The notes under the pieces were generated by a model. It made no database searches. It saw only the letters and a program-made list of their open reading frames with translations, and was not told the DNA's origin. The position numbers and the translations under genes are program-made. Positions 25,578 to 39,810 of a DNA stretch of 58,971 nt are shown here, one piece after another (positions within the stretch are counted from its first letter, which is position 1; each line of letters starts with the position of its first letter). This stretch comes from Maricaulis sp. (GTDB taxonomy: Bacteria; Pseudomonadota; Alphaproteobacteria; Caulobacterales; Maricaulaceae), in the NCBI GenBank assembly GCA_029251785.1, contig JAQXCQ010000190.1, positions 1 through 58,971 on the forward strand, given 5' to 3'.

Positions 25578-27806
25578 TCATTCATTATAGTATTGTTGGT
25601 ATCCTTGGTAATAAGCACCATAAGCACTGCCGCCATATTTGGATTGCTCTTTGAGATTCACACGCGTCAGAACAACGCCCAGGATGTTCGCTCGCACTTT
25701 GGCCAGACTGGCAAGCGCGGTTTTAGCCACACCGGCTTTGGTCTTTTTCCAGGCAGATTGGAACACTACAGCATCAACGCGACTCGCCAAATCCAGCGAA
25801 TCCGCGACGGCTAAAACGGGCGCAGAATCGAGTATGATTAAATCATAATTTTGCCGCAAGGCATCGAGCATGCGTTCGAAACTGGCTGATCCAAAAACGT
25901 CACGCGGCGAGAATTTGCCACGGCCGAGTGGCAAAATGGCCATTCCCGTTTTTTTGTCGGTTTTCATAACCGAACTAAACTTCACGCTGCCATTCATCGC
26001 CTCCAGCCAACCTTGCTTGGCATTCGGGCACAATTCGGCCGACAGTCGTTTGCGCCGCAGGTCGCAATCGATGACAATTGCACGACTTTCAGCCATAGCG
26101 GCAATTTTGCCCAGGCAAATACTCGTTGTGGTTTTTCCCTCATCCGGCAGGGCCGAGGTTACAACAATGATTTGAGCGGGACCATCCGCGCTTGCGAGAT
26201 TGATAGACGAGCGGATAGCACGAATACTCTCGGCAAACGCAGACATGGGTTTCTTGACCACATAGTCCGAGGGTGTCGACACGCCGGTGACCAGCCGAGA
26301 AAGAGCGTTGAACTTTAACAGAGGAACCGAGGCCAGGTGCGGCATGTCCAATTTGGATTCAACGTCGACATCGGTGTGCAGACCAGTCCGCAGCATCTCC
26401 AGCAGCAATATGGTGCCGAAGCCCGCCGCAATACCGAGCGCGAGACCTGTTAGAAGGCTCATTCCGACATCAGGAGCGCTTGGGTCAAGCGGCCTAGACG
26501 CTGTAGCGACCACGCGCGCATCGGATTCTGTCAAAGACACTTGCTCGCTGGTTTGCTGATAGCGTGTCAAAATCGACTGGAACATCGTCCGGCTTGCATC
26601 CGCCTCACGCTCAAGTTCCCGCAAGCGAACTATTGCGTTGTAATTGACACCCAGATCCCGACGAAGGCGGCCAAGACTGCCCGACAACGACCGAACCCGC
26701 TGCCTTGCAATATCGGCTTCATTTGACAGATTCGCGACGATGCGCGCCACTTCCTGGTCAATTTGTCTATCCAGGTCAGATTGCTCTCGGATAACTGTGA
26801 CCATTTGCGGGTGACGTGGACCGTAGCGTGTCGACAATTCGCCGCGGCGGCGTGTGACATCCGCCTGCCTCTGACGAAGGTCGCGGATGACTTCTGACCG
26901 GAGAACTTCGGCGATAGTTTCAGCGCTGACTCCGCGCTCAATTTGATCACGCACATTACGCAACCGTGCTTCCGCCTCCGCCAATGCCGCTCTCTGCATA
27001 ACCAATTGTGCGTTCACATCCGAAATTTGTTGCTCTGTCAGGGATGCGCCTTCTGCATCCAGCAAACCCGCAGATTCACGATATTCAGCAACCGCAGTTT
27101 CTCGCGTTCTCACCTCTTCGCGTAAGACCTCCACGCGGTCATTAAGCCACGCATTGGCGCGCTCTGTTGCGGCAAATTTTTGCTCGAGCTGAGCGTCGAG
27201 ATAGGCCTCGACGAATGTATTGGCGATATCTCTCGCCAGGCTTGGCGACCAAGATGTCGCGGAAACATCAATGAGATACGACACACCCGCTCGATCAATC
27301 GAGACATGACTCATCAAGCTGGCAATCACACGTTCGCGCTCATACTCGGTCGTTTCACGCTGGATATCCGGCTGAGTTTGTTGCGGACTCATCGATGTGA
27401 TCCAGCCCGTAACAGTGGAGCGTACCTCACTTAGAAAAGATGGGGCCCGCAAGGCAGAGTTAAACTCAGGGACATCGACCAAATTGAGTTCGTCGACGAC
27501 GACACCGGCGAGACGATTGCTATTAAAGACAACAACTTCCGTATCCATCATCGCTGAATCAGGTGCGCGGCCGGTGAGGACCGCATCAAAATCAACGATT
27601 CGGCTTTGAGGCGCGTCAAGGGCGACTTGTGATGTGGCGGTATAGGTGGGAGTGGCCTGAAGCGTTACCAGTGCGACAACCGTGAACACAAGTCCCGACA
27701 CCGGCAGTAAAGTCCAGAGTCGTCTGAACACCACATTGATCATGGCTTGCAGATCAATAAGGTCGTCAGTCGCGACTACTGAGTTCTGTATTTGAACGCT
27801 GGACAT
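25578..27806 (-). CDS. Wzc-like polysaccharide co-polymerase with tyrosine autokinase domain
   Basis: The 742-residue inner-membrane protein has a Wzz/chain-length domain with two membrane helices (about 35-52 and 450-470) flanking a long coiled-coil periplasmic region. A cytoplasmic BY-kinase follows: Walker A SALPDEGKTTT with Lys558, Walker A' VIDCDLRRKR, Walker B LIILDSAP with Asp660. The C-terminal tail carries seven tyrosines in 17 residues (Y724-Y740). It should control chain length and export through a phosphorylation cycle and contact the Wza-like protein. A 311-base gap with a strong hairpin separates it from the barrel gene upstream. ATG 27806 is preferred to TTG 27818. Confidence 0.95.
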   Translation of the reverse strand: MSSVQIQNSVVATDDLIDLQAMINVVFRRLWTLLPVSGLVFTVVALVTLQATPTYTATSQVALDAPQSRIVDFDAVLTGRAPDSAMMDTEVVVFNSNRLAGVVVDELNLVDVPEFNSALRAPSFLSEVRSTVTGWITSMSPQQTQPDIQRETTEYERERVIASLMSHVSIDRAGVSYLIDVSATSWSPSLARDIANTFVEAYLDAQLEQKFAATERANAWLNDRVEVLREEVRTRETAVAEYRESAGLLDAEGASLTEQQISDVNAQLVMQRAALAEAEARLRNVRDQIERGVSAETIAEVLRSEVIRDLRQRQADVTRRRGELSTRYGPRHPQMVTVIREQSDLDRQIDQEVARIVANLSNEADIARQRVRSLSGSLGRLRRDLGVNYNAIVRLRELEREADASRTMFQSILTRYQQTSEQVSLTESDARVVATASRPLDPSAPDVGMSLLTGLALGIAAGFGTILLLEMLRTGLHTDVDVESKLDMPHLASVPLLKFNALSRLVTGVSTPSDYVVKKPMSAFAESIRAIRSSINLASADGPAQIIVVTSALPDEGKTTTSICLGKIAAMAESRAIVIDCDLRRKRLSAELCPNAKQGWLEAMNGSVKFSSVMKTDKKTGMAILPLGRGKFSPRDVFGSASFERMLDALRQNYDLIILDSAPVLAVADSLDLASRVDAVVFQSAWKKTKAGVAKTALASLAKVRANILGVVLTRVNLKEQSKYGGSAYGAYYQGYQQYYNE

Positions 27807-28044
27807 CTCACTAAACAAAACTTTTCTGCTTGAAACTCAGACAGATTTAAAGTGCGTGTCTCCTAATGGACTCAGGGTGAATGGATTAAGGCCGAAATAT
27901 GAAACGGAGGCCGACCGGTTTGAGAAGGAAGTCCCGCGCCGGTCTGACCCAAGTCTTTACGATAGGTTAATTGTGGACCCTGGGAGCGCATTAATCCACA
28001 TAAATCAACAAATTAAGATTATTATTCTACGAAGTTGCAAAAGA

Positions 28045-29489: not shown

Positions 29490-30395
29490 TTAATAATCGG
29501 AATTTCCGCCACCCGGGGGCGGAGCAGGCGGTGTGATGCGATATCCCACACCTGTTGGGGGCTCACGACGGTTACACAGATTTATCTCCGCGCGCCCACG
29601 TCCGGTTGAAGTCGTGTAGCCGGTATCAACCGGCATGTGAGAGCCGAGTGAATCAAGCGCTCGCAACGCCGCAATCGTACCGCTCCCAACCTGGCGGGTA
29701 TAGCCGAGCGCATTGTTCTGGCCACTCGCCTGTAACCCAGTGTTTTCGAGGATGACCCGCACGATATGTTCGAATTCGCATTGAGTCGTGTATCGCGGAG
29801 CGTCTTGAATCGCCGCGACAATTTCATCCCCTACCGTTGCCGAAGGGTCGGGAGGCGGGGGAATGTAGACCGGAGGTGGCGTGTCTTCTACCACAGGCTC
29901 AGGGTCGGGCTCTGGTTCAGGTACCAGTTCTGGTTCCGGAGCCGGCTCGGGTGTGATAGTTGGCGGAGCTTCAACCGGGTTTGTGCAGCTATTTTCAAAG
30001 CCAGAATCCGGAGAATAACCAGCATCTCCCTCAGGTTGGAACAAGTCTACATTTATCAGCGCGTCAAGTACGACGAAGCTGCAATCTTCATTGGCGGCGA
30101 CGATCGATAGAGCGCGCAATTCCGTAGCAGCACTCGCTCCGGATTGGCGTAAAATTCTTTGGATTTCTGCCTCGAGCTCGCACTGCGTGGCTCCGCGCAT
30201 GGAGTCAATTGCATTCTGAATTTGCGCGGCCAGTGCCTGCGCAGCTCCTTCATCAGCCGGCGTCGGCGCTTCTTTTTGGTCGAGAGTGACGAGGGTCGCG
30301 ACTGCATAACCGGCTGCCGGAGCAGCAGTTATAAATGCCAAAGCCGCGACACCAAGGCCGAGATTTCTCGAAAATTCGCGAATGGCATTCGGCAT
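29490..30395 (-). CDS. secreted protein with Pro/Glu-rich linker
   Basis: The 301-residue protein has an N-terminal hydrophobic segment (about 12-35, LGLGVAALAFITAAPAAGYA) that is either a signal peptide or an anchor. A domain with three Cys (about 50-150) follows, then a ~45-residue PEPEP/PPPP linker, then a second similar domain (about 200-275). The two domains look like repeats: each has an IQ(N/D)A segment, a TQCE(L/F)E motif and I(L)R(Q/V)xL. The proline-rich linker suggests spanning of the periplasm or peptidoglycan. I recognise no family. It heads the minus-strand polysaccharide gene group, with GGGGGGAAG 6 bases before its ATG. Confidence 0.75.
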   Translation of the reverse strand: MPNAIREFSRNLGLGVAALAFITAAPAAGYAVATLVTLDQKEAPTPADEGAAQALAAQIQNAIDSMRGATQCELEAEIQRILRQSGASAATELRALSIVAANEDCSFVVLDALINVDLFQPEGDAGYSPDSGFENSCTNPVEAPPTITPEPAPEPELVPEPEPDPEPVVEDTPPPVYIPPPPDPSATVGDEIVAAIQDAPRYTTQCEFEHIVRVILENTGLQASGQNNALGYTRQVGSGTIAALRALDSLGSHMPVDTGYTTSTGRGRAEINLCNRREPPTGVGYRITPPAPPPGGGNSDY

Positions 30396-30736: not shown

Positions 30737-31483
30737 ATGTGGTCGTTTTTTTCCCGTAACGCCAAATCGTCCAAAAACAAGCCTGTATTGTCGACCCTGA
30801 CCTATGCGGTCGGCGATATTCACGGCCGACTTGATCTACTCGAGCGCCTGCTAGATCTCATCCAAATCGACCGGAATGGGCGCGACGCGGAGATCGTGTT
30901 TTTGGGAGATTACATTGATCGCGGTGCTGATTCCGCCGGTGTTGTAGAAGCCCTTGCGACGCGTAAGGGAATGGAGGGGTTAAATCCGATCTTTTTAAAG
31001 GGAAACCACGAAGCGACACTGATTGAGTTCCTCAAGTCGGGGCAGGGTGGTCCGGCCTGGGCAAAATTTGGCGGGCTTGAGGCTTTGGCGTCCTACGGTG
31101 TGCGACCGCCAAAGAAGAGAACCAATAGAGCTCAGTGGTCGGAAGCCCATGCTCAATTGCAAAAGGCTATTCCTGAACATCACCTCGAATTTTTGGAAAA
31201 GTTGGAATTGACGGCACGACGCGGACCCTATCTTTTTGTCCACGCAGGCATTGACCCCAATCGTCCGATATCAGAGCAGGGCGAGGCTGAGTTTCTATGG
31301 ATTCGCAAAGCGTTTTTGACCAGCTCCAAACGGCTGGAAGCGATTGTGGTTCATGGTCATTCTGTCACCGGTAAGCCTAAACGCTCTAAATACCGTATCG
31401 GAGTCGATACCGGTGCATATATGAGTGGTCATCTTACAGCGGTGAAACTGCTGGATGATCGTGTGGATTTCATCGCCACCTGA
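30737..31483 (+). CDS. PPP-family metallophosphatase (Ser/Thr protein phosphatase-like)
   Basis: The 248-residue protein has the phosphoprotein-phosphatase metal motifs in order: GDIHGR (near 27), GDYIDRGAD (near 55), LKGNHE (near 91), and late His residues in FVHAGID and VVHGHS. It resembles lambda-phosphatase/PrpA-type enzymes with a two-metal centre, which remove phosphate from Ser/Thr and sometimes Tyr. It is cytoplasmic. Its place in a polysaccharide locus that also encodes a tyrosine autokinase and a kinase-like flippase suggests it reverses one of those phosphorylations. That link is inference. Confidence 0.9.
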   Translation: MWSFFSRNAKSSKNKPVLSTLTYAVGDIHGRLDLLERLLDLIQIDRNGRDAEIVFLGDYIDRGADSAGVVEALATRKGMEGLNPIFLKGNHEATLIEFLKSGQGGPAWAKFGGLEALASYGVRPPKKRTNRAQWSEAHAQLQKAIPEHHLEFLEKLELTARRGPYLFVHAGIDPNRPISEQGEAEFLWIRKAFLTSSKRLEAIVVHGHSVTGKPKRSKYRIGVDTGAYMSGHLTAVKLLDDRVDFIAT

Positions 31484-31717: not shown

Positions 31718-32554
31718 GTGACTGATTTTGTTTCCGCCCCTCCGATTGGCAAGGGTGTTGTTACACTCAAGAAAGCGCATCAAACCTTCGACGTGCTCGG
31801 TGTGCCAGTCTCCGTCACCTCACTCGCGGATGCGAGCGATACCATTTTGCAATGGGCGGCCGACGCGCGGGGAAGGTTTGTCTGTATCCGTGATGTGCAC
31901 GGTGTGATGCGAGCCCGCAAAGATGCTGAATTGATGCGGCTGCATTTCCAGGCGGATATGGTCACTCCCGATGGTATGCCATTGGTTTTGCTGGGAAAGG
32001 TAAAAGGGCATTCCGTCGAGCGGACGTGTGGGGCCGATCTGATGGAGGACGTCTGTAGACGGTCTCCAGCGCGTCGCATTAAGCATTATTTCTACGGCGG
32101 AAATGAAGGTGTCGCCGAGCGAATGAAAGCGAAATTTGAAGAGCGATTCCCGGGTATTGAAATTGCCGGACACGAAACGCCCCCCTTTCGACCGCAAACC
32201 GCGGAGGAAGATGAAGCCACCGTTGAGCGCATCCGAAAAAGTGGTGCCGATGTGGTGTGGGTCGGCCTTTCGACCCCCAAACAGGAGCAATGGATGCGGC
32301 AACACGTAGACCGTGTGCCAGCAACCTTAATCGGTGTCGGGGCCGCCTACGATTTTCATACTGGCGCGATTCGACGGGCTCCGGTTTGGATGCAACGCAA
32401 TACCTTGGAGTGGTTGCACCGGCTCATCTCCGAGCCTCGGCGCCTCTGGCGACGTTACTTGATCATGGCTCCTAAGTTTCTCGTCCTCGCGACGCTAGAC
32501 GTGTTGGGGGTCAGTACAAAGCGTGCAGCACCACGGCCGCAAAACGGTCGGTAG
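31718..32554 (+). CDS. WecG/TagA/CpsF family glycosyltransferase
   Basis: The 278-residue GT26 enzyme should add a sugar (often N-acetylmannosamine-type) to the lipid-linked first sugar. Diagnostic segments are VTPDGMPLVLLGK with the catalytic Asp, ERTCGADLMEDVC, WVGLSTPKQEQWM and IGVGAAYDFHTG, then RAPVWMQRNTLEWLHRLISE. HfsJ of the Caulobacter holdfast pathway belongs to this family. It starts with GTG preceded by AGGGGGAG. It opens the plus-strand operon that continues through the flippase, polymerase, deacetylase and GT4 genes. Palindrome B lies upstream. Confidence 0.94.
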   Translation: MTDFVSAPPIGKGVVTLKKAHQTFDVLGVPVSVTSLADASDTILQWAADARGRFVCIRDVHGVMRARKDAELMRLHFQADMVTPDGMPLVLLGKVKGHSVERTCGADLMEDVCRRSPARRIKHYFYGGNEGVAERMKAKFEERFPGIEIAGHETPPFRPQTAEEDEATVERIRKSGADVVWVGLSTPKQEQWMRQHVDRVPATLIGVGAAYDFHTGAIRRAPVWMQRNTLEWLHRLISEPRRLWRRYLIMAPKFLVLATLDVLGVSTKRAAPRPQNGR

Positions 32555-32556
32555 GA

Positions 32557-34803
32557 TTGGTGTTTCCTTTTCTGACAGGCCTGTTACGGCGGCATAGCCA
32601 AATAAATTGGGTGTTGATGGATCAGGCGCTTGTGTCGGGAAGCAACTTCCTGACAGGCATACTCCTGGCCAGGACTCTGGGTCTCGAGGGGTTTGGCAGC
32701 TTCACACTGGCTTGGTTGGTGGTTCTATTTGTTCAAGGCCTGCAGCACGCCGCGATCAATGCGCCAATGTTGACCCTCGGACCGCAGCAGTCAGAGCCAG
32801 ATCGGCCGCACTACTTTGGCGGAGTCCTCGTACTCCAGCTTCTATTCGCCGTCGGCAGTGTTCTCGCCGCAATTGTAATTTTGTATGGAATGGCTCAGTT
32901 TCAACCGGAGTGGGATCTGTTGTCTTTGATCTTGCCGCTTGGCTGTGCGGCATTCATTTGCCAGATACAGGATTTCCTCCGGCGCTACTATTTCACTCGT
33001 GATCGACCTCACCGAAGTTTGATCGGCGATGTGTTGCGATATGGCGGGCAAATACTTGGAATATTCTTGCTATCGAGCGGCCTGCTGCTGTCCATGACAG
33101 TCCAGTCGGCTCTATGGGTGCACGCGCTCACGGCCGCGATTTCGGCAGGATACATGCTGGCAAATCTTGGGAGTTTGCGTTTTACCACCGCCGCACTTGT
33201 CAAGGCAGCCTCCGGTCATTGGATGATCGGGAAGTGGCTGACAGGTTCCGCGATTTTACGGTGGGTGTCGGGCAATTTGTTCATTTTGGCGTCCGGCGGC
33301 ATGTTGGGTGTCGCGGCGGCGGGGGCGTTAAAGGCTGCCCAAAACATTCTGGGCCTGGTGCAAATACTCTTTCAAGCTTTAGAGAATTATTTGCCCGTCA
33401 CCGCGTCACGACATTTTAAAGTCGGCGGAGTGCAAGCGCTCCGCAAGTTTTTGGGGCAAGCTACGCTGCGCGGTGGTGTGGTTGTGACCACACTGGTCAT
33501 TGGATTTATTGCGTTTCCGGAGTTCTGGCTCGCTTTATTTTATGGGGATCAATATTTAGAATTTGGCTATGTGGTGCAAGGTTTCGCTGTCGCTTATCTA
33601 TTGATTTATCTTTATATTCCGTCTGAGTGTGCACTTCGAACCCTCGGGAGGGCCCGGGCAATTTTTATCGCGACGGCCCTCGCGTCGGTCATTGCTCTTG
33701 CAAGCGTTTACACCTTGATATCGGAATTCGGTATCGTCGGGGCCCTGCTCGGGATCATCATCGTTCATGCAACAAAATTGCTGGTCGGCAGTCGATGGGC
33801 ACAGCATGAGTTACGTCATTATGAAGCTCAGTCGACGACGTCTGATCTCGATCTGTGTCGCCGAGTGTTGGCGGAGATGGGATCTGCATCGACCAAGGCG
33901 ATATCCAGCGTCGAGCTTTTGGTGGTGGGCAAGCATGGCCGTGTGTTCCGGGTCGACCAATCAGGCGGAAGCCCGATGGTTTTTAAATTTTATGAGACCG
34001 ACCTGGACCTGGCATTGGTTAAGCGAACAGGCGAGGCGAAGGCCGTGAGCAACATGCATCAGGCATTAGGTCACAAAACATCGGTTGCATCCTGGACGGT
34101 CAGAGCTCCAGCATTGATTGGTGAGACAGCAGACCCGTCATGCCTGGTCACCGATTTTGTTGAAGGAGTAACCGTCGATAAATGGCTGCGGGACGCGAAC
34201 GATGCCCTCTATCACGAGCATCGCGATGCCCTCGCTAAATCTATCGCGTTGGCGTGGTCGCATTATTGGTCAAATCAAAAAGAGGTCATTGGCGACGTCA
34301 ACTACTTCAACGTGATGGTCGATATTTCGAATCAGGAAGTGGCGATCATCGACCCCGGAATGCCCCACGCTTACTATCTCTGCCCCAGTGTGGAAAAAGC
34401 ATTCTTCCCAGCATCTCGGGACTTGGCGTATCTCGCGTGGGAGTTGACCCTCGGTAATGTACGGCGAACCGCAAGCGGCGAATGGCGCGCGGTGCGTCGA
34501 CGCAAAGACTTGTTCCAGCGCATTATGCTCGCAGCCATTGCTGCGGTATCCCCGGAGAAAGAACACAAATTTCGACAGGAAATTTTTGATTGTTGGTGTG
34601 CGCACCGGGCCTGGGTGCGGCAAGCGCACGAAACGAGGCAGAAGACGTCTGGGAACATGCTAAATGCGCGAATTCTGGCGTTTTTGACTGAACCGCAGGC
34701 AAAGTTACATATCTTAGGCAATACCGCCGCGGCGCCATCAATGCGCTCAGGCAAAATCGATGTCCGTGGCTCGATCGTTGAGGAGAGTGCCCATGATCGA
34801 TAA
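32557..34803 (+). CDS. polysaccharide flippase fused to a protein kinase-like domain
   Basis: The 748-residue protein has an N-terminal MATE/Wzx-type lipid-linked oligosaccharide flippase of ~12 helices (about 20-415), linked without a break to a cytoplasmic kinase-like domain (about 450-700). That domain keeps every core catalytic feature: Lys477 (MVFKFYE), Glu493, a hinge CLVTDFVEG, a catalytic loop GDVNYFNVMVD with Asp580 and Asn585, and metal-binding Asp599 (AIIDPG). The loop resembles aminoglycoside or LPS kinase-type enzymes more than eukaryotic-type Ser/Thr kinases. It may phosphorylate the glycan, its lipid carrier or a protein. Start is TTG 32557 or GTG 32560, just after the WecG stop. 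Confidence 0.9.
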   Translation: MVFPFLTGLLRRHSQINWVLMDQALVSGSNFLTGILLARTLGLEGFGSFTLAWLVVLFVQGLQHAAINAPMLTLGPQQSEPDRPHYFGGVLVLQLLFAVGSVLAAIVILYGMAQFQPEWDLLSLILPLGCAAFICQIQDFLRRYYFTRDRPHRSLIGDVLRYGGQILGIFLLSSGLLLSMTVQSALWVHALTAAISAGYMLANLGSLRFTTAALVKAASGHWMIGKWLTGSAILRWVSGNLFILASGGMLGVAAAGALKAAQNILGLVQILFQALENYLPVTASRHFKVGGVQALRKFLGQATLRGGVVVTTLVIGFIAFPEFWLALFYGDQYLEFGYVVQGFAVAYLLIYLYIPSECALRTLGRARAIFIATALASVIALASVYTLISEFGIVGALLGIIIVHATKLLVGSRWAQHELRHYEAQSTTSDLDLCRRVLAEMGSASTKAISSVELLVVGKHGRVFRVDQSGGSPMVFKFYETDLDLALVKRTGEAKAVSNMHQALGHKTSVASWTVRAPALIGETADPSCLVTDFVEGVTVDKWLRDANDALYHEHRDALAKSIALAWSHYWSNQKEVIGDVNYFNVMVDISNQEVAIIDPGMPHAYYLCPSVEKAFFPASRDLAYLAWELTLGNVRRTASGEWRAVRRRKDLFQRIMLAAIAAVSPEKEHKFRQEIFDCWCAHRAWVRQAHETRQKTSGNMLNARILAFLTEPQAKLHILGNTAAAPSMRSGKIDVRGSIVEESAHDR

Positions 34804-34845: not shown

Positions 34846-36051
34846 ATGATCGATCGAGCAGAGAGTAGTGTAACGCAAGCAGGCGGTGCGCCGGGTCGAA
34901 ATGGAGGCAGTCTTTCGTCTGTGGTGCCGGTCCTGCGCTGGTCGGTCATCCTCTATCTGGCGTTTCTCCCGATCTATTACATTCTACCGTCTGACAATAG
35001 TATTCGGGATATCATCTATCTGTTTCCACTGCTGATCGTCGCTGAGTGTTTGCGGCGCGAGGGTGTTAAAATTCGGCGTGCGGGTGTGGTTTGGATCCTG
35101 GCCTATGCCGGTTTCGGCATCATTATGCTGACGCAGCTGAATTTTGCCGAAATCGCGCTGAAGGAATACGTATTTATTTTACTGTCGATCAGCCCGTTTG
35201 TATTGAAATTTGCGGTGTCCAGACGGTTTGCCAAATATTTGGTCGTCGTCGGTTTGGTGAATGTAGTCATTATCCTCACATCAACGGATGCAACCGGGCT
35301 GGACCTCTCTGTCGGCTCGTCCAGTGGTCGTGCGGAATCAAGCTTTGGTTTGATCGTCCCGATCGTGTTTTTCGCGCTCTATATCCAAAAACGGTGGATG
35401 TGGAGCCTTGTGGCGATTGTCATTTGTTTTCTGATGTTCAAGCGAGTAGCCATCATTGCAATGATTTTGGCGGTTGGTTTCGATTTGGTTTTGATCGGCC
35501 AGGCTCGCAACGCCTTCAAGCAAATGCTGAAGCCAATCGCAGGCGTGACTTTGCTCGCATTCACAATGCTCGTTAGCTTGAATTCCGTCGTATTCTACGA
35601 GACAGCGTCAATTTTTTTACTGGATAGTTTTGATCTTCGTATTTCGCCAAATGCGCTTTCATCGGGCCGGTATTACACCGTCGCCGTATTCACACATCGC
35701 GTGCTTGATGATGTAAGCTGGGTGCAAATTGTCTTCGGGCATGGGCCCGGAGCCAGCAGTTATTATCTGTCGAATATGACCGCGCTTGGCGAAGGACAGT
35801 TTTCGCTGCTTCACAATGACTGGTTACGGATTTTCACGGACTATGGGCTGATTGGAATTAGCGTCGTCTCGGTTGCTTTCTACAAAGCGGTCATGTCGAA
35901 ACGCTTTATCGCGATGGTCGGGGTCTACACCATGGTGATCTTTATGTCGGACAATGTCGCGACCTATCTAATTTTCTGGCTAGCCGTTGCATTATTATTT
36001 GCGGGTACATTGGATCGGGTGCACGGCCGCATCGAGGGTAAGCGCGCGTGA
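34846..36051 (+). CDS. O-antigen polymerase/Wzy-like membrane protein
   Basis: The 401-residue protein is hydrophobic, with about 10-12 membrane helices. A large loop (about 240-320) contains SGRYYTVAVFTHR and FGHGPGASSYYLSN, and HNDWLRIFTDYGLIG follows. This layout is that of Wzy polymerases and O-antigen ligases, which join lipid-linked repeat units in the periplasm. GGGAGGT lies before the ATG. Its last 4 bases overlap the deacetylase start. A second such protein lies at 39820, so one may polymerise and the other ligate, or each may act on a different glycan. Confidence 0.88.
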   Translation: MIDRAESSVTQAGGAPGRNGGSLSSVVPVLRWSVILYLAFLPIYYILPSDNSIRDIIYLFPLLIVAECLRREGVKIRRAGVVWILAYAGFGIIMLTQLNFAEIALKEYVFILLSISPFVLKFAVSRRFAKYLVVVGLVNVVIILTSTDATGLDLSVGSSSGRAESSFGLIVPIVFFALYIQKRWMWSLVAIVICFLMFKRVAIIAMILAVGFDLVLIGQARNAFKQMLKPIAGVTLLAFTMLVSLNSVVFYETASIFLLDSFDLRISPNALSSGRYYTVAVFTHRVLDDVSWVQIVFGHGPGASSYYLSNMTALGEGQFSLLHNDWLRIFTDYGLIGISVVSVAFYKAVMSKRFIAMVGVYTMVIFMSDNVATYLIFWLAVALLFAGTLDRVHGRIEGKRA

Positions 36052-36812
36052 CCAAAAAAGTTGGGCTAAAATTGACAACGTCCTGGGATGACGGACACCC
36101 ACTCGATGACCGTTTGGCCGATTTATTGATGCGGCACGGTGTGCGCGCTACGTTCTATGTGCCCGGAGAGAACTGCGAACAGAGAGACGTGATGAGCACG
36201 GCGGCATTGCGAGCCTTGCACACGCAATTCCAAATCGGCAGCCATACTCGAACCCATGCCAATTTGAAGACGCTGACATCAACCGCCTCGGCAGCGGAAA
36301 TCAGGTCAGGTAAGGCGCATTTAGAAAATCAACTTGGGACAGCTGTCGATCATTTTTGTTATCCGGGAGGGGGCTTTAACAACGCAATCGCGGCGCAGGT
36401 TCGCGCTGCCGGGTTTCGGTATGCCAGAACGGTGAAAAGCTTCTGCACGACTCGTGTGTTCGACCCGTTTCAGATGCCGACGACCTTGCAGGTCTTCCCC
36501 CACACAAAAGCTGACTATTTCAGGAATTTCCTTCGGTACGGACACCGGGCACATCGGGCCAAACCATTCTTGCTCGCACTGTCGAAGGCCAAGCTTGTAG
36601 ACCGTCTTGTCGCGCTCGCGGAGCTGGCGCATGATCAAAATGGATGCCTGCATATCTGGGGCCATTCCTGGGAATTGGAGGCGGTGGGACTTTGGGCATC
36701 GGTCGATGAAGCGTTGAGTGTAATCGTTGGCAGTTTTGATGTGCAGCATGTTGATAATGCTGCAGAAACGGTGTGCAAAACGCCACCGAGCCCCCAGCGC
36801 GTCGTGTCCTGA
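36048..36812 (+). CDS. polysaccharide deacetylase (NodB-fold, CE4-like)
   Basis: The 254-residue protein has the NodB homology motifs: TSWDDGHP with the catalytic/metal Asp pair, HGVRATFYVPGEN, the metal-binding SHTRTHANL (H-x3-H), HFCYPGGGFN and a late His in CLHIWGHSWE. It should remove N- or O-acetyl groups from the polysaccharide or its precursor. HfsH plays that role for the Caulobacter holdfast. No signal peptide is visible, so it is probably cytoplasmic and acts on lipid-linked intermediates. It overlaps the polymerase gene by 4 bases (ATGA-type), which supports co-translation. Confidence 0.93.
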   Translation: MTKKVGLKLTTSWDDGHPLDDRLADLLMRHGVRATFYVPGENCEQRDVMSTAALRALHTQFQIGSHTRTHANLKTLTSTASAAEIRSGKAHLENQLGTAVDHFCYPGGGFNNAIAAQVRAAGFRYARTVKSFCTTRVFDPFQMPTTLQVFPHTKADYFRNFLRYGHRAHRAKPFLLALSKAKLVDRLVALAELAHDQNGCLHIWGHSWELEAVGLWASVDEALSVIVGSFDVQHVDNAAETVCKTPPSPQRVVS

Positions 36813-36814
36813 GC

Positions 36815-38011
36815 GTGCGCGTTTTACTGGCCCATAACACCTATCAGCATGCCGGTGGGGAGGATTCTGTCGTCGCCAATGAGCATGATCTGCTGATCGC
36901 TGCGGGTCATGAAGTCCATCTCTATACGGTGTCTAATGAAGGTATCCGGTCTCTGTCCGACAAGTTCGCGGCATTTCTGCACACGCCTCATAATAATCGA
37001 TCACGCATCGACTTCGCCCAAGAGATCGATCGTTTCCAACCCGATATCGTGCATGTCCACAACACCTTTCCGCTTTTATCTCCTGCGATCTACAGCCCCT
37101 GTCACGAGCGGGGAATACCGGTCGTGCAGACGCTTCACAATTACCGAACGGTCTGTGCCAATGCGCTATTGATGCGGCAGGGGCGTATTTGCGAAAAATG
37201 TGTGACAGGCAGCAAATATTGGGGCGTCTACCACCGCTGTTATCGAAACTCCGCCGTCGCTTCACTGGCCGTTGTGCGTTTGCAAACACGCGCTGTTGAG
37301 CAACAGACATGGCACAACCGAGTCGATCGATTTATTGCGCTGACGCGGTTCGCTCGAGACAAATTTATTCAGGCAGGGCTACCGGCAGATCGCATCGTCA
37401 TCAAACCCAACTTTGTGCCGGACCCATTGCGCCAGGGCGAATACGCGAGCCATGCCCCTGCCAGATTGCCTCCGGAAAAAACCCGCCGTGGGGCGCTGTA
37501 TGTGGGGCGCCTGAGCGAAGAAAAGGGGGTCGATATTTTAGTGCGTGCGTGGCGCAGTGTGGACCAGATCCCGCTTCGTATTGTTGGTGATGGACCGCAA
37601 ACCGAGCAATTGAAGGCCCTCGCGCCATCCAATGTTGCATTTGTTGGCCGATTGAATCCAGATCAGGTGCGCGCGGAAATGTTGAGCGCGGCGGCATTGA
37701 TCCAACCCTCGATTTGTTATGAGGGCTTCCCGGCGACAATCGCCGAAGCCTATTCCAGCGGTTTGCCGGTCATCGCGTCCGATATTGGCTCCTTGACAGA
37801 ATTGGTTGAGGTCAATCAGACCGGAATCCTAGTAAAGCCCGGCGATGTCGCTGCATTGGCGGTCGCAGTCAATAAAACCTTCGCGAATGCTGACGCGCTG
37901 CAGGCCATGTCGAGAACGGCTCGCCTAACCTATGAAGCCTCCTATACCGCCAAGAACAATCTTGCGGCCCTTGAAGGACTTTATTCTGAATTGCTTTCCG
38001 CGGCCCGGTAA
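36815..38011 (+). CDS. GT4-family glycosyltransferase
   Basis: The ~398-residue retaining glycosyltransferase opens VRVLLAHNTYQHAGGEDSVV. It has the C-terminal nucleotide-sugar site ALYVGRLSEEKGVDILV and an E-x7-E motif in CYEGFPATIAEAYSSGLPVI. It transfers a sugar from a nucleotide donor to the growing repeat unit at the cytoplasmic face. A middle segment has several cysteines (CEKCVTGSKYWGVYHRC), common in a subgroup of these enzymes. GTG 36815, 2 bases after the deacetylase stop, fits the family's N-terminus best; GTG 36773 is possible. Its 3' end overlaps the convergent galE by 31 bases. Confidence 0.9.
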   Translation: MRVLLAHNTYQHAGGEDSVVANEHDLLIAAGHEVHLYTVSNEGIRSLSDKFAAFLHTPHNNRSRIDFAQEIDRFQPDIVHVHNTFPLLSPAIYSPCHERGIPVVQTLHNYRTVCANALLMRQGRICEKCVTGSKYWGVYHRCYRNSAVASLAVVRLQTRAVEQQTWHNRVDRFIALTRFARDKFIQAGLPADRIVIKPNFVPDPLRQGEYASHAPARLPPEKTRRGALYVGRLSEEKGVDILVRAWRSVDQIPLRIVGDGPQTEQLKALAPSNVAFVGRLNPDQVRAEMLSAAALIQPSICYEGFPATIAEAYSSGLPVIASDIGSLTELVEVNQTGILVKPGDVAALAVAVNKTFANADALQAMSRTARLTYEASYTAKNNLAALEGLYSELLSAAR

Positions 38012-39036
38012 CCGTCGCGATTTCCAGATTGCCAACGCCAATGATCGCGACACATCTCATCGAGCGATCTTGTGGCCGCCCAACCGAGCAGTTTTTCCGC
38101 CCGTGACGGATTGGCGAAACTCATCGCCACATCACCCGGCCGACGGTCCACCAATTCAATCGGGATGTGTTTTCCGGCCGCTCGGGAAAATGCGGAAATC
38201 ACTTCAAGAACACTGTGTCCGTGCCCTGAGCCCAAATTGATTGGCATGACATCTCCGCGATTTTGGTTGGTCAAATAGTCCACAGCCGCCAAGTGTCCAA
38301 GGGCGAGATCATCAACATGGATGTAATCGCGTATTCCGGTCCCATCCGGCGTGTCGTAATCGCCTCCGAAAACGCTGACATGAGGTCGCCGCCCGACCGC
38401 AACTTGGGCAATGTAGGGAAAAAGATTGTTGGGGATTCCGGTCGGGTCTTCACCGATCAAACCAGACGGGTGTGCGCCGACCGGATTGAAATAGCGCAAA
38501 TTGATGACCTGCCATTTTGAGCGCGCTCTGGCGTGGTCAGCTAACAAGCGCTCATTGAGGATTTTGGTTGAACCGTATGGATTGGCAGCGGACAAAACCC
38601 CTTCTTCTGAAACGGGGGATTTATTCTCGGCACCATAGACCGACGCAGATGACGAAAAGACCAGTTTAGTCGCGTTCAACTGGTCTAGAATATTTATCAA
38701 ATTCAATGTGGTATTGATATTTACATCATAATATCGGCTCGGTTGTTCGACCGATTCCCCAACCGCTTTCAGACCCGCCAAATGCACCGCGCCCCAAATG
38801 TCGTGCGGGCGCAGCTCATCGAGAACTGTTGCCGCTCCCTGTGCGGAGGCCAGGTCTGCTTCAATCAGTTTCGGGCGTCGCCCCGTGATACGCTCGAGTC
38901 GATCGAAAACCACGGGCGAGGAATTGGCAAAGTTATCGATGATGATGATGTCGATATCGCGCGCCAACATCAGGGCAGCAATATGAGAGCCGATATAGCC
39001 GGCTCCGCCTGCGAGAATAATGCTTTTGGATGTCAT
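37981..39036 (-). CDS. galE: UDP-glucose 4-epimerase
   Basis: The 351-residue extended short-chain dehydrogenase interconverts UDP-glucose and UDP-galactose (or the GlcNAc forms), supplying sugar donors. It has NAD-binding GGAGYIGSH at the N-terminus, LVFSSSASVYG, the catalytic YGSTK, and YFNPVGAH, NNLFPYIAQVA and RDYIHVDDLA, all GalE hallmarks. ATG 39036 (MTSKSIILAGGAGYIG) is chosen over an open-frame extension of 40 codons. The gene stands alone on the minus strand within a plus-strand locus. It overlaps the GT4 gene tail by 31 bases and is divergent from the export lipoprotein gene. Confidence 0.95.
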   Translation of the reverse strand: MTSKSIILAGGAGYIGSHIAALMLARDIDIIIIDNFANSSPVVFDRLERITGRRPKLIEADLASAQGAATVLDELRPHDIWGAVHLAGLKAVGESVEQPSRYYDVNINTTLNLINILDQLNATKLVFSSSASVYGAENKSPVSEEGVLSAANPYGSTKILNERLLADHARARSKWQVINLRYFNPVGAHPSGLIGEDPTGIPNNLFPYIAQVAVGRRPHVSVFGGDYDTPDGTGIRDYIHVDDLALGHLAAVDYLTNQNRGDVMPINLGSGHGHSVLEVISAFSRAAGKHIPIELVDRRPGDVAMSFANPSRAEKLLGWAATRSLDEMCRDHWRWQSGNRDGYRAAESNSE

Positions 39037-39243
39037 GGCACCGTGTCTTTTCCTCAGCAATGACAGTACTGTAGCGACATTCAACAAGGTTGTCGCGATA
39101 TGTCGCAGCATAGCAGGGTCACAACACCATTTCCGGCGCGGCGATTGTCGACACATTTCATCGGCGCACTGCTAATCGGGAGCTATGCGCCTGCGAGGGT
39201 CCCTGCTATAGATGTCTTAGGGTAACCAAGTGTGGGGAGTATG

Positions 39244-39810
39244 ATGGTTCGTTTCGTTTTAATTGCCTTGAGTGCGGTTTTTCTTGCGGCTTGCCAGACG
39301 ACGGCACCTGCTTCCGATTCAACGGGTTTGATGCCCGCCCTTCAACAAGGCGCGGAATATCGGCTTGGTTCCGGGGACCAGGTCAGAATCATCGTTTTCA
39401 ACGAAGAAACCTTGTCGGGCGAATTCGTTGTGGATGGCGGCGGGCGCGTGTCTTTGCCGTTAATTGGTGAAGTTTCAGCGGGGGGCGCGACCTTGCGGGA
39501 ATTCGAAGCGGCCATCGTCGCCGAATTGTCGGAGGGATATCTCAATGACCCGCGGGTCAATGTAGAGGTGTTGAACTACCGCCCTTATTATATTCTGGGC
39601 GAGGTGGAACAAGCCGGAGAGTATCCCTACACAGACGGATTGACGGTCATGAACGCCGTTGCAACGGCCGGGGGCTATACATATCGGGCTAATCAGCGTG
39701 TCGTGTTCATCAAACGTGCGGGTTCTGATGAAATGGTAGAATACCCGCTGTCGGCTGTGATTTCAGTGCAACCTGGCGACACCATCCGGATCGGTGAGCG
39801 TTTCTTCTAG
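39244..39810 (+). CDS. Wza-like polysaccharide export lipoprotein (short form)
   Basis: The 188-residue protein has a lipoprotein leader ending FLAACQ, the poly-export domain YRLGSGDQVRIIVFNE...GRVSLPLIGEV, and one SLBB-type domain YYILGEVEQAGEYPYTDGLT. It should form the outer-membrane/periplasmic export channel for the polysaccharide together with the Wzc-like protein. At 188 residues it is about half of E. coli Wza and lacks the C-terminal helix that forms the outer-membrane pore. The beta-barrel protein encoded at 28118-29428 may supply that pore. ATG 39244, with GGGGAG 4 bases upstream, is preferred to GTG 39232 or ATG 39241. Confidence 0.93.
   Translation: MVRFVLIALSAVFLAACQTTAPASDSTGLMPALQQGAEYRLGSGDQVRIIVFNEETLSGEFVVDGGGRVSLPLIGEVSAGGATLREFEAAIVAELSEGYLNDPRVNVEVLNYRPYYILGEVEQAGEYPYTDGLTVMNAVATAGGYTYRANQRVVFIKRAGSDEMVEYPLSAVISVQPGDTIRIGERFF

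Follow-up and report, generated by a model that had tools for sequence, protein, structure and literature searches.

MviN of Mycobacterium tuberculosis, which we take to be a MurJ-type flippase of the MOP superfamily, moves lipid II. It carries a C-terminal pseudokinase, and in Mycobacterium and its relatives (the ActPs3 family) a flippase and a kinase-fold domain are found in one polypeptide, according to the available part of PMC12599244. Here we analyze a comparable gene in a 58,971-nucleotide stretch of a Maricaulis contig (JAQXCQ010000190.1, positions 1 to 58,971; the whole of this stretch is referred to below as the window), in which one open frame joins a Wzx-type flippase to a C-terminal domain of the kinase superfamily. 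MviN is a precedent for combining flippase and kinase-like domain; what is new is an apparently intact kinase on a Wzx protein. A first-pass annotation of the window, which knew of no described flippase with a kinase of its own, was too sweeping in this respect, given the MviN pseudokinase reported in the accessible text of PMC12599244.

The two proteins differ in both halves. The MviN pseudokinase has degraded VAIK and DFG motifs, whereas the window domain keeps the corresponding Lys, Asp, Asn and Asp. Set against the table in the available part of PMC12599244, where degraded VAIK, HRD and DFG motifs mark the MviN/ActPs3 type, all eight kinases of the family described here (the window's and seven others) retain Lys/Asp/Asn/Asp. 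In addition, the window flippase is of the Wzx type and lies in a locus with WecG, Wzy and Wza.

Three other systems share some of these features. WbdD of Escherichia coli O9a has a kinase-fold domain that acts in a polysaccharide pathway and phosphorylates the terminal mannose of the polyprenol-linked O-antigen, as described in the accessible portion of PMC3482155. Compared by description, however, the WbdD kinase has a methyltransferase and a coiled coil as its fusion partners, and the protein terminates chains as part of an ABC-transporter pathway, whereas the partner in the window is a flippase in a Wzx/Wzy-type locus. In Streptococcus pneumoniae the gatekeeper TacF, also a flippase of the MOP superfamily, recognizes phosphate groups on its teichoic-acid substrate, and its transport depends on phosphate-bearing groups there, but the enzymes of phospho-modification (LicA, LicC and LicD) are separate proteins (both points from the available text of PMC13385700). 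The Wzc-type tyrosine autokinases also tie kinase activity to a Wzx/Wzy locus, and the window encodes a Wzz+AAA protein. These bacterial tyrosine (BY) kinases, however, have a P-loop fold that is unrelated to the protein-kinase fold. Among the openly licensed papers that searches on flippases with kinase domains brought up, no title or abstract opening describes a Wzx with an active kinase domain, and the accessible part of PMC3924187 describes no flippase-kinase fusion.

One open frame for a flippase and a kinase-superfamily domain

The frame at 32557-34803 on the forward strand begins with TTG, encodes 748 amino acids and starts 2 nucleotides after the stop of the WecG gene. Fold and profile evidence bear out the earlier description of a single frame that joins the two domains, which are laid out as follows:

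32557..33816, + strand: flippase domain, Wzx-type (MOP superfamily), fusion residues 1-420; assigned from AlphaFold, Foldseek and the flippase tree
33829..34701, + strand: kinase-superfamily domain, residues ~425-715, with G458, K477, D580, N585, D599 and D622; assigned from the leave-one-out profile, a seven-member profile against the PDB, invariant residues and the lack of a hydrophobic segment past residue 430
34702..34803, + strand: poorly conserved C-terminal tail and stop; assigned from the alignment

The GC content at third codon positions (GC3) is unchanged at the junction of the two domains, and the same architecture occurs in six other genomes. Because the architecture recurs and GC3 is constant, an artefactual join at the junction is unlikely; this speaks against the earlier concern that a frameshift might have joined two genes in this assembly only. 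Two of the relatives have irregular frames at the ends of the fusion. At L070:6953-9395 the extreme C-terminal tail runs on in another frame, past the kinase core, and in L074 (7273-10391) a single frame without a stop runs from the 3' part of WecG into the flippase-kinase, with the 5' part of WecG in another frame.

Residues 1-420 have no match in Pfam. The AlphaFold model of this region, built from an 18-row alignment, has a mean predicted local distance difference test score (pLDDT) of 90.3 and a predicted template modelling score (pTM) of 0.87, and its best Foldseek matches in the PDB are MATE transporters (E 3.4e-8), MurJ (2.5e-7) and WzxE (9.7e-7). By its predicted structure this half is a MOP flippase, and its setting is of the Wzx/Wzy type, with WecG, Wzz/Wzc, Wza and a Wzy that falls below the Pfam cut-off. 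A scan of named genomes gave 22 loci with relatives of the flippase (L028-L049), 20 of them at 33-46% identity across most of the domain and two (L047 and L048) short pieces; some of the 22 duplicate genes of other fetched loci, and L038 and L039 hold an identical protein. A 1310-residue open frame in L015, considered as a second fusion, proved to be a flippase with overlapping open frames and had no match to the kinase query.

On sequence evidence, the C-terminal region (residues ~430-710) belongs to the kinase superfamily. A profile built without the window sequence matches the window kinase with 86 bits (E 1.1e-24), and in the fetched loci no frame apart from the member kinases scores above 23.7 bits. 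A seven-member profile searched against the PDB has a best match of 1.8e-7, and the best 60 of its 458 matches all bear the names of kinases or kinase-fold proteins. The top matches include a Bud32-like kinase (8k20, which we take to be Bud32), ULK2 and TP53RK, among many protein kinases. No hydrophobic segment is found after residue 430. The single-sequence AlphaFold model of the kinase half was set aside (pLDDT 36), and single-sequence searches were uninformative: phmmer against the PDB gave only chance matches to ankyrin proteins, NCBIfam only a chance match, and PADLOC a weak match to PD-T4-6 (0.0035, 14.5 bits).

Within the superfamily, the domain falls short of every Pfam family. Searched alone, the window domain matches ABC1 (1.1e-4), PK_Tyr_Ser-Thr (2.4e-4), RIO1 and APH, all below the curated cut-offs. 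The match to ABC1/UbiB (PF03109) is 21.9 bits against a gathering cut-off of 22.9, and that to APH (PF01636) is 14.5 bits against 23.2. Seven members were scanned in this way (L082 was left out). APH is the sole family matched by all seven, weakly, at E 1 or better (best 8.7e-6); ABC1/UbiB is matched at that level by the window kinase only, and weak Kdo/WaaP matches occur in four of the seven (best 0.01).

An alignment of the eight kinases, in which the other seven are 20-26% identical to the window's, has G458, K477, D580, N585, D599 and D622 invariant. In the window K477 stands in VFKFY, D580 in IGDVNYFN and D599 in IDPG, and D622 is the αF Asp. The full catalytic set read from the single sequence (K477, E493, D580, N585 and D599) was numbered exactly and holds for four of its five residues, but E493 is not a conserved column: the seven other kinases have Glu or Asp two positions further on, where the window has Lys495. 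Similarly, the catalytic-loop His of the seven others is Ile578 in the window. Free loss of the catalytic residues among homologues, which had been raised as a doubt, is not what is seen, since K477, D580, N585 and D599 are kept in 8/8.

In all eight the DFG-type Asp and the αF Asp stand 18-24 residues apart, about half the 40 and 43 of the Ser/Thr kinases in L052 and L055, and none of the eight has the full activation segment of eukaryotic-type Ser/Thr kinases. This short form is known from APH-like and Bud32-like kinases. In the closest pair, L069 and L070, the ratio of nonsynonymous to synonymous substitution rates (dN/dS) is 0.22 for the kinase and 0.41 for the flippase; the kinase is under purifying selection in this one pair.

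Distribution and history of the kinase family

The kinase is rare around Maricaulis and recurs in another family of the same class. The kinase profile matches 1 of 19 genomes of the genus, and the kinase half 1 of 299 in a sample of the order, in each case the window's own genome, in which no second copy of the domain was found. In the family sample the whole protein matched 3 of 137 genomes, G071 and G072 in the flippase part only. A class sample of 385 genomes added two weak matches (a 47-codon match and, judged by eye, a UbiB-like protein), and a profile search of 220 class genomes added three genomes with short kinase-motif matches. In the phylum sample (398 genomes), G947 is the one clear match besides the window's (E 1.1e-10), the nine others having E 7.7e-4 or weaker. 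These samples were searched with differing queries, mostly one divergent sequence, so distant members may be missed.

In G947 the kinase ends a 772-residue frame that opens with a Wzx-like flippase. The kinase is clear in 6 of 80 genomes of that genus (one more match, a weak one, was discarded), as full fusions in L069, L070, L071, L072 and L074 and as separate genes in L073, and a further genus of the same family has a fusion in L082 (2 of 74 genomes matched, the other being G947). With the window there are eight kinase loci, seven fused and one split, and the seven outside the window come from two genera. A contig scan of genomes with the kinase half gave 28 pattern matches and no relatives, viral contigs and phages yielded none, and plasmid searches matched flippase, deacetylase or sugar-nucleotide enzymes only.

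Several candidate members were dropped. L006, L007, L052-L060 and L076-L079 have short or general kinase matches; frames were read for L006, L007, L052, L053, L055 and L085 (G440), and the rest were judged from match tables and scores of 31 bits or less. G1130 has a match with E 8.7e-4 (34% identity over about 95 residues) that is interrupted by an internal TAG.

The split locus bears on the history of the fusion. At L073:3984-9561 an FAD oxidoreductase gene and an ATP-grasp gene stand between flippase and kinase; the kinase adjoins the deacetylase and GT4 genes, with the flippase two genes off. Both frames, that of the flippase and that of the kinase, contain residues resembling the final flippase helix of fused members. 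Together with the place of the kinase beside the deacetylase and GT4, this suggests that the split genes descend from a fusion, as gene fission would leave them.

A tree built from 37 flippases has the window's as sister to the unfused flippases of Maricaulis (support 96/88) and groups the fused flippases of the other family in a clade far from it. The tree excludes L022, which gave no match to guide trimming, the weak L023-L026, duplicates, short pieces and L082. A single clade of all kinase-bearing flippases is rejected by the approximately unbiased (AU) test (p 0.014). The group tested was defined by possession of the kinase, but the test followed inspection of the tree, whose branches are long. 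Because such a clade is rejected, two separate lineages of flippase probably acquired the kinase, or else a fused gene had its flippase part exchanged. In BLASTP the window protein and the G947 fusion align over their full length, junction included (154/681 identical, E 9e-28), which would also be compatible with a single origin.

The surrounding polysaccharide locus

The window carries a Wzx/Wzy-type locus for an exopolysaccharide, with these genes around the fusion:

25578-27818: Wzz+AAA (Wzz/Wzc-like) protein
30737..31483, + strand: calcineurin-like phosphatase of the phosphoprotein phosphatase (PPP) family, two genes upstream of the fusion; Pfam PF00149, 2.4e-14
31718..32554, + strand: WecG/TagA-type glycosyltransferase, directly upstream; Pfam PF03808, 6e-61
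34846..36051, + strand: putative Wzy polymerase, after the fusion and before the deacetylase; Pfam Wzy_C 8e-4, below cut-off, and position
36048..36812, + strand: polysaccharide deacetylase (PF01522); Pfam 2.4e-18
36773..38011, + strand: GT4 glycosyltransferase; Pfam PF00534, 1.2e-30
37981..39156, - strand: NAD-dependent epimerase/dehydratase; Pfam PF16363, 1.6e-47; no match in L083/L084 (syntenic Maricaulis locus)
39232..39810, + strand: Wza-type export protein; Pfam PF02563, 3.5e-23

A ligase-like protein lies past Wza, and the other side of the fusion holds a sugar transferase, the Wzz/Wzc-like protein, a BBP2-type porin and the PPP phosphatase. The frame at 29490-30395 has no Pfam family above cut-off; it is conserved in Maricaulis relatives, matches them in several overlapping pieces and is probably repetitive. 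Holdfast came into consideration as what the locus makes, but we do not propose it.

Part of this setting is shared by all kinase loci. WecG lies upstream of the flippase in all eight, seven of them fused (in L082 the contig end cuts WecG, and in L074 it occupies two frames). The deacetylase and GT4 lie downstream in 8/8. Among the 22 unfused-flippase loci, with flanks of up to 6 kb and several shorter, the deacetylase is found in none and GT4, at 100 bits or more, in five. The interval between fusion and deacetylase varies: it holds Wzy in the window, one other gene in L069 and L070, and a 0.9 kb stretch in L082. Two syntenic Maricaulis loci lack the kinase domain; the G071 locus is collinear with the window, and kinase, deacetylase, GT4 and epimerase were not found there within 30 kb. 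A strict linkage of kinase with deacetylase and GT4 is weakened by the plasmid locus L088, which is taken up below.

The PPP phosphatase is differently distributed. It occurs in loci without the kinase (L003, L004, L011-L013, L029, L034, L036, L037 and L088), often beside WecG, some of those from L003 to L037 being the same gene fetched twice, and it was not detected in the kinase loci L069-L074 and L082. The idea of kinase and phosphatase as writer and eraser is set back by this pattern.

Other genes recur near the relatives. A protein of about 970-1000 residues follows GT4 at L071:3669-6629, L072:12658-15573 and L074:12317-15334; the versions in L071 and L072 match a HAD hydrolase (PF08282) over their C-terminal part. 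A thymidylate-kinase-like P-loop protein (L069:7079-8518 and L070:9340-10776) has homologues in 10 of the 22 unfused-flippase loci and is found near such flippases with or without a fused kinase.

Possible roles of the kinase domain

Our favored reading, which we hold tentatively, makes the C-terminal domain an active glycan kinase, tethered to the membrane on its cytoplasmic side, which would phosphorylate the lipid-linked repeat unit next to the flippase. WecG and GT4 would assemble this unit on the membrane's inner face; the kinase would then move a phosphate from ATP onto one of its sugars, perhaps together with the deacetylase. Finally, the MOP flippase joined to the kinase would carry the phosphorylated unit across for polymerization by Wzy. 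Through the fusion the kinase would stay at the transporter's mouth. The sequences establish the fusion, membership of the kinase superfamily, the conserved catalytic residues and the conserved gene setting, whereas we infer the cytoplasmic side, catalysis, the glycan as substrate and the order of the steps. In favor of the reading are the invariant Lys, Asp, Asn, Asp and αF Asp (8/8), the APH and weaker Kdo/WaaP matches, the short spacing between DFG and αF, and the gene setting kept in 8/8. WbdD and TacF are precedents, the first for phosphorylation of a polyprenol-linked glycan by a kinase-fold domain and the second for a MOP flippase selecting on substrate phosphate. The low dN/dS in L069/L070, the position of the L073 kinase beside deacetylase and GT4, and the presence of kinase, deacetylase, GT4 and epimerase in the window as against syntenic G071 point the same way. 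A bolder and more speculative idea, 'phosphorylate-to-flip', is doubtful on present evidence: the flippase's own kinase would phosphorylate the lipid-linked glycan, and the flippase cavity would admit only, or preferentially, the phosphorylated unit. Modification and export would then be one licensed step, with the kinase joined to two distant Wzx lineages together with the deacetylase-GT4 set.

Several observations weigh against a glycan kinase. The window domain lacks the catalytic-loop His and has no clear helix-C Glu. The best profile matches in the PDB are protein-kinase-like, a Bud32-like kinase and TP53RK included, with no small-molecule kinases among them. Seven of the eight kinase loci come from one family, six of these from one genus, and are not independent. 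L088 combines the deacetylase, GT4, WecG, the PPP phosphatase and a Wzc-like protein, and the kinase profile matches nothing in it. Its deacetylase also resembles the window's more closely (172 bits) than do the intact deacetylases at the kinase loci (110-133 bits).

The missing His and unclear Glu could instead mark a regulatory domain of the MviN kind. Such a domain would gate the flippase, with ATP or partner proteins as its ligands, and would leave the sugar unphosphorylated. We consider this unlikely, since MviN has lost its Lys, catalytic and DFG motifs (available text of PMC12599244), whereas Lys/Asp/Asn/Asp are kept here in 8/8, and no FHA domain was found among the 20 window proteins scanned with Pfam. 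The protein-kinase-like PDB matches, in turn, would suit a protein kinase that acts on a product of the locus (the flippase, WecG, Wzc or Wzy) and is opposed by the PPP phosphatase two genes upstream. This is still less probable: the phosphatase occurs in loci of unfused flippases, no match to it was seen in L069-L074 or L082, and the distance from DFG to αF is short.

A kinase of the lipid carrier, which would recycle undecaprenol or its phosphate at the flippase, seems improbable. The domain does sit at a transporter of the lipid carrier, and weak APH matches occur in 7/7 scanned members, the APH fold class being one that phosphorylates small molecules. However, the kinase is tied to a particular glycan gene set (deacetylase and GT4) and not to flippases in general, and the examined relatives of the window flippase have no kinase of the same family. 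A functionless fusion that arose by chance, or a misassembly, would account for its presence in only 1 of 19 genomes of the genus and is very improbable in view of the six other genomes with the same architecture, the invariant catalytic residues, the constant GC3 and the purifying selection in one pair.

The modification and the flipping of polysaccharides are normally the work of separate proteins. A recurring flippase with an apparently intact kinase offers a one-polypeptide system in which to ask whether flippases check or drive the modification of their substrates, and the six fused relatives and one naturally split version provide material for direct tests. The fusion also gives a hint that exopolysaccharides may be phosphorylated in Maricaulis and in another family of its class.
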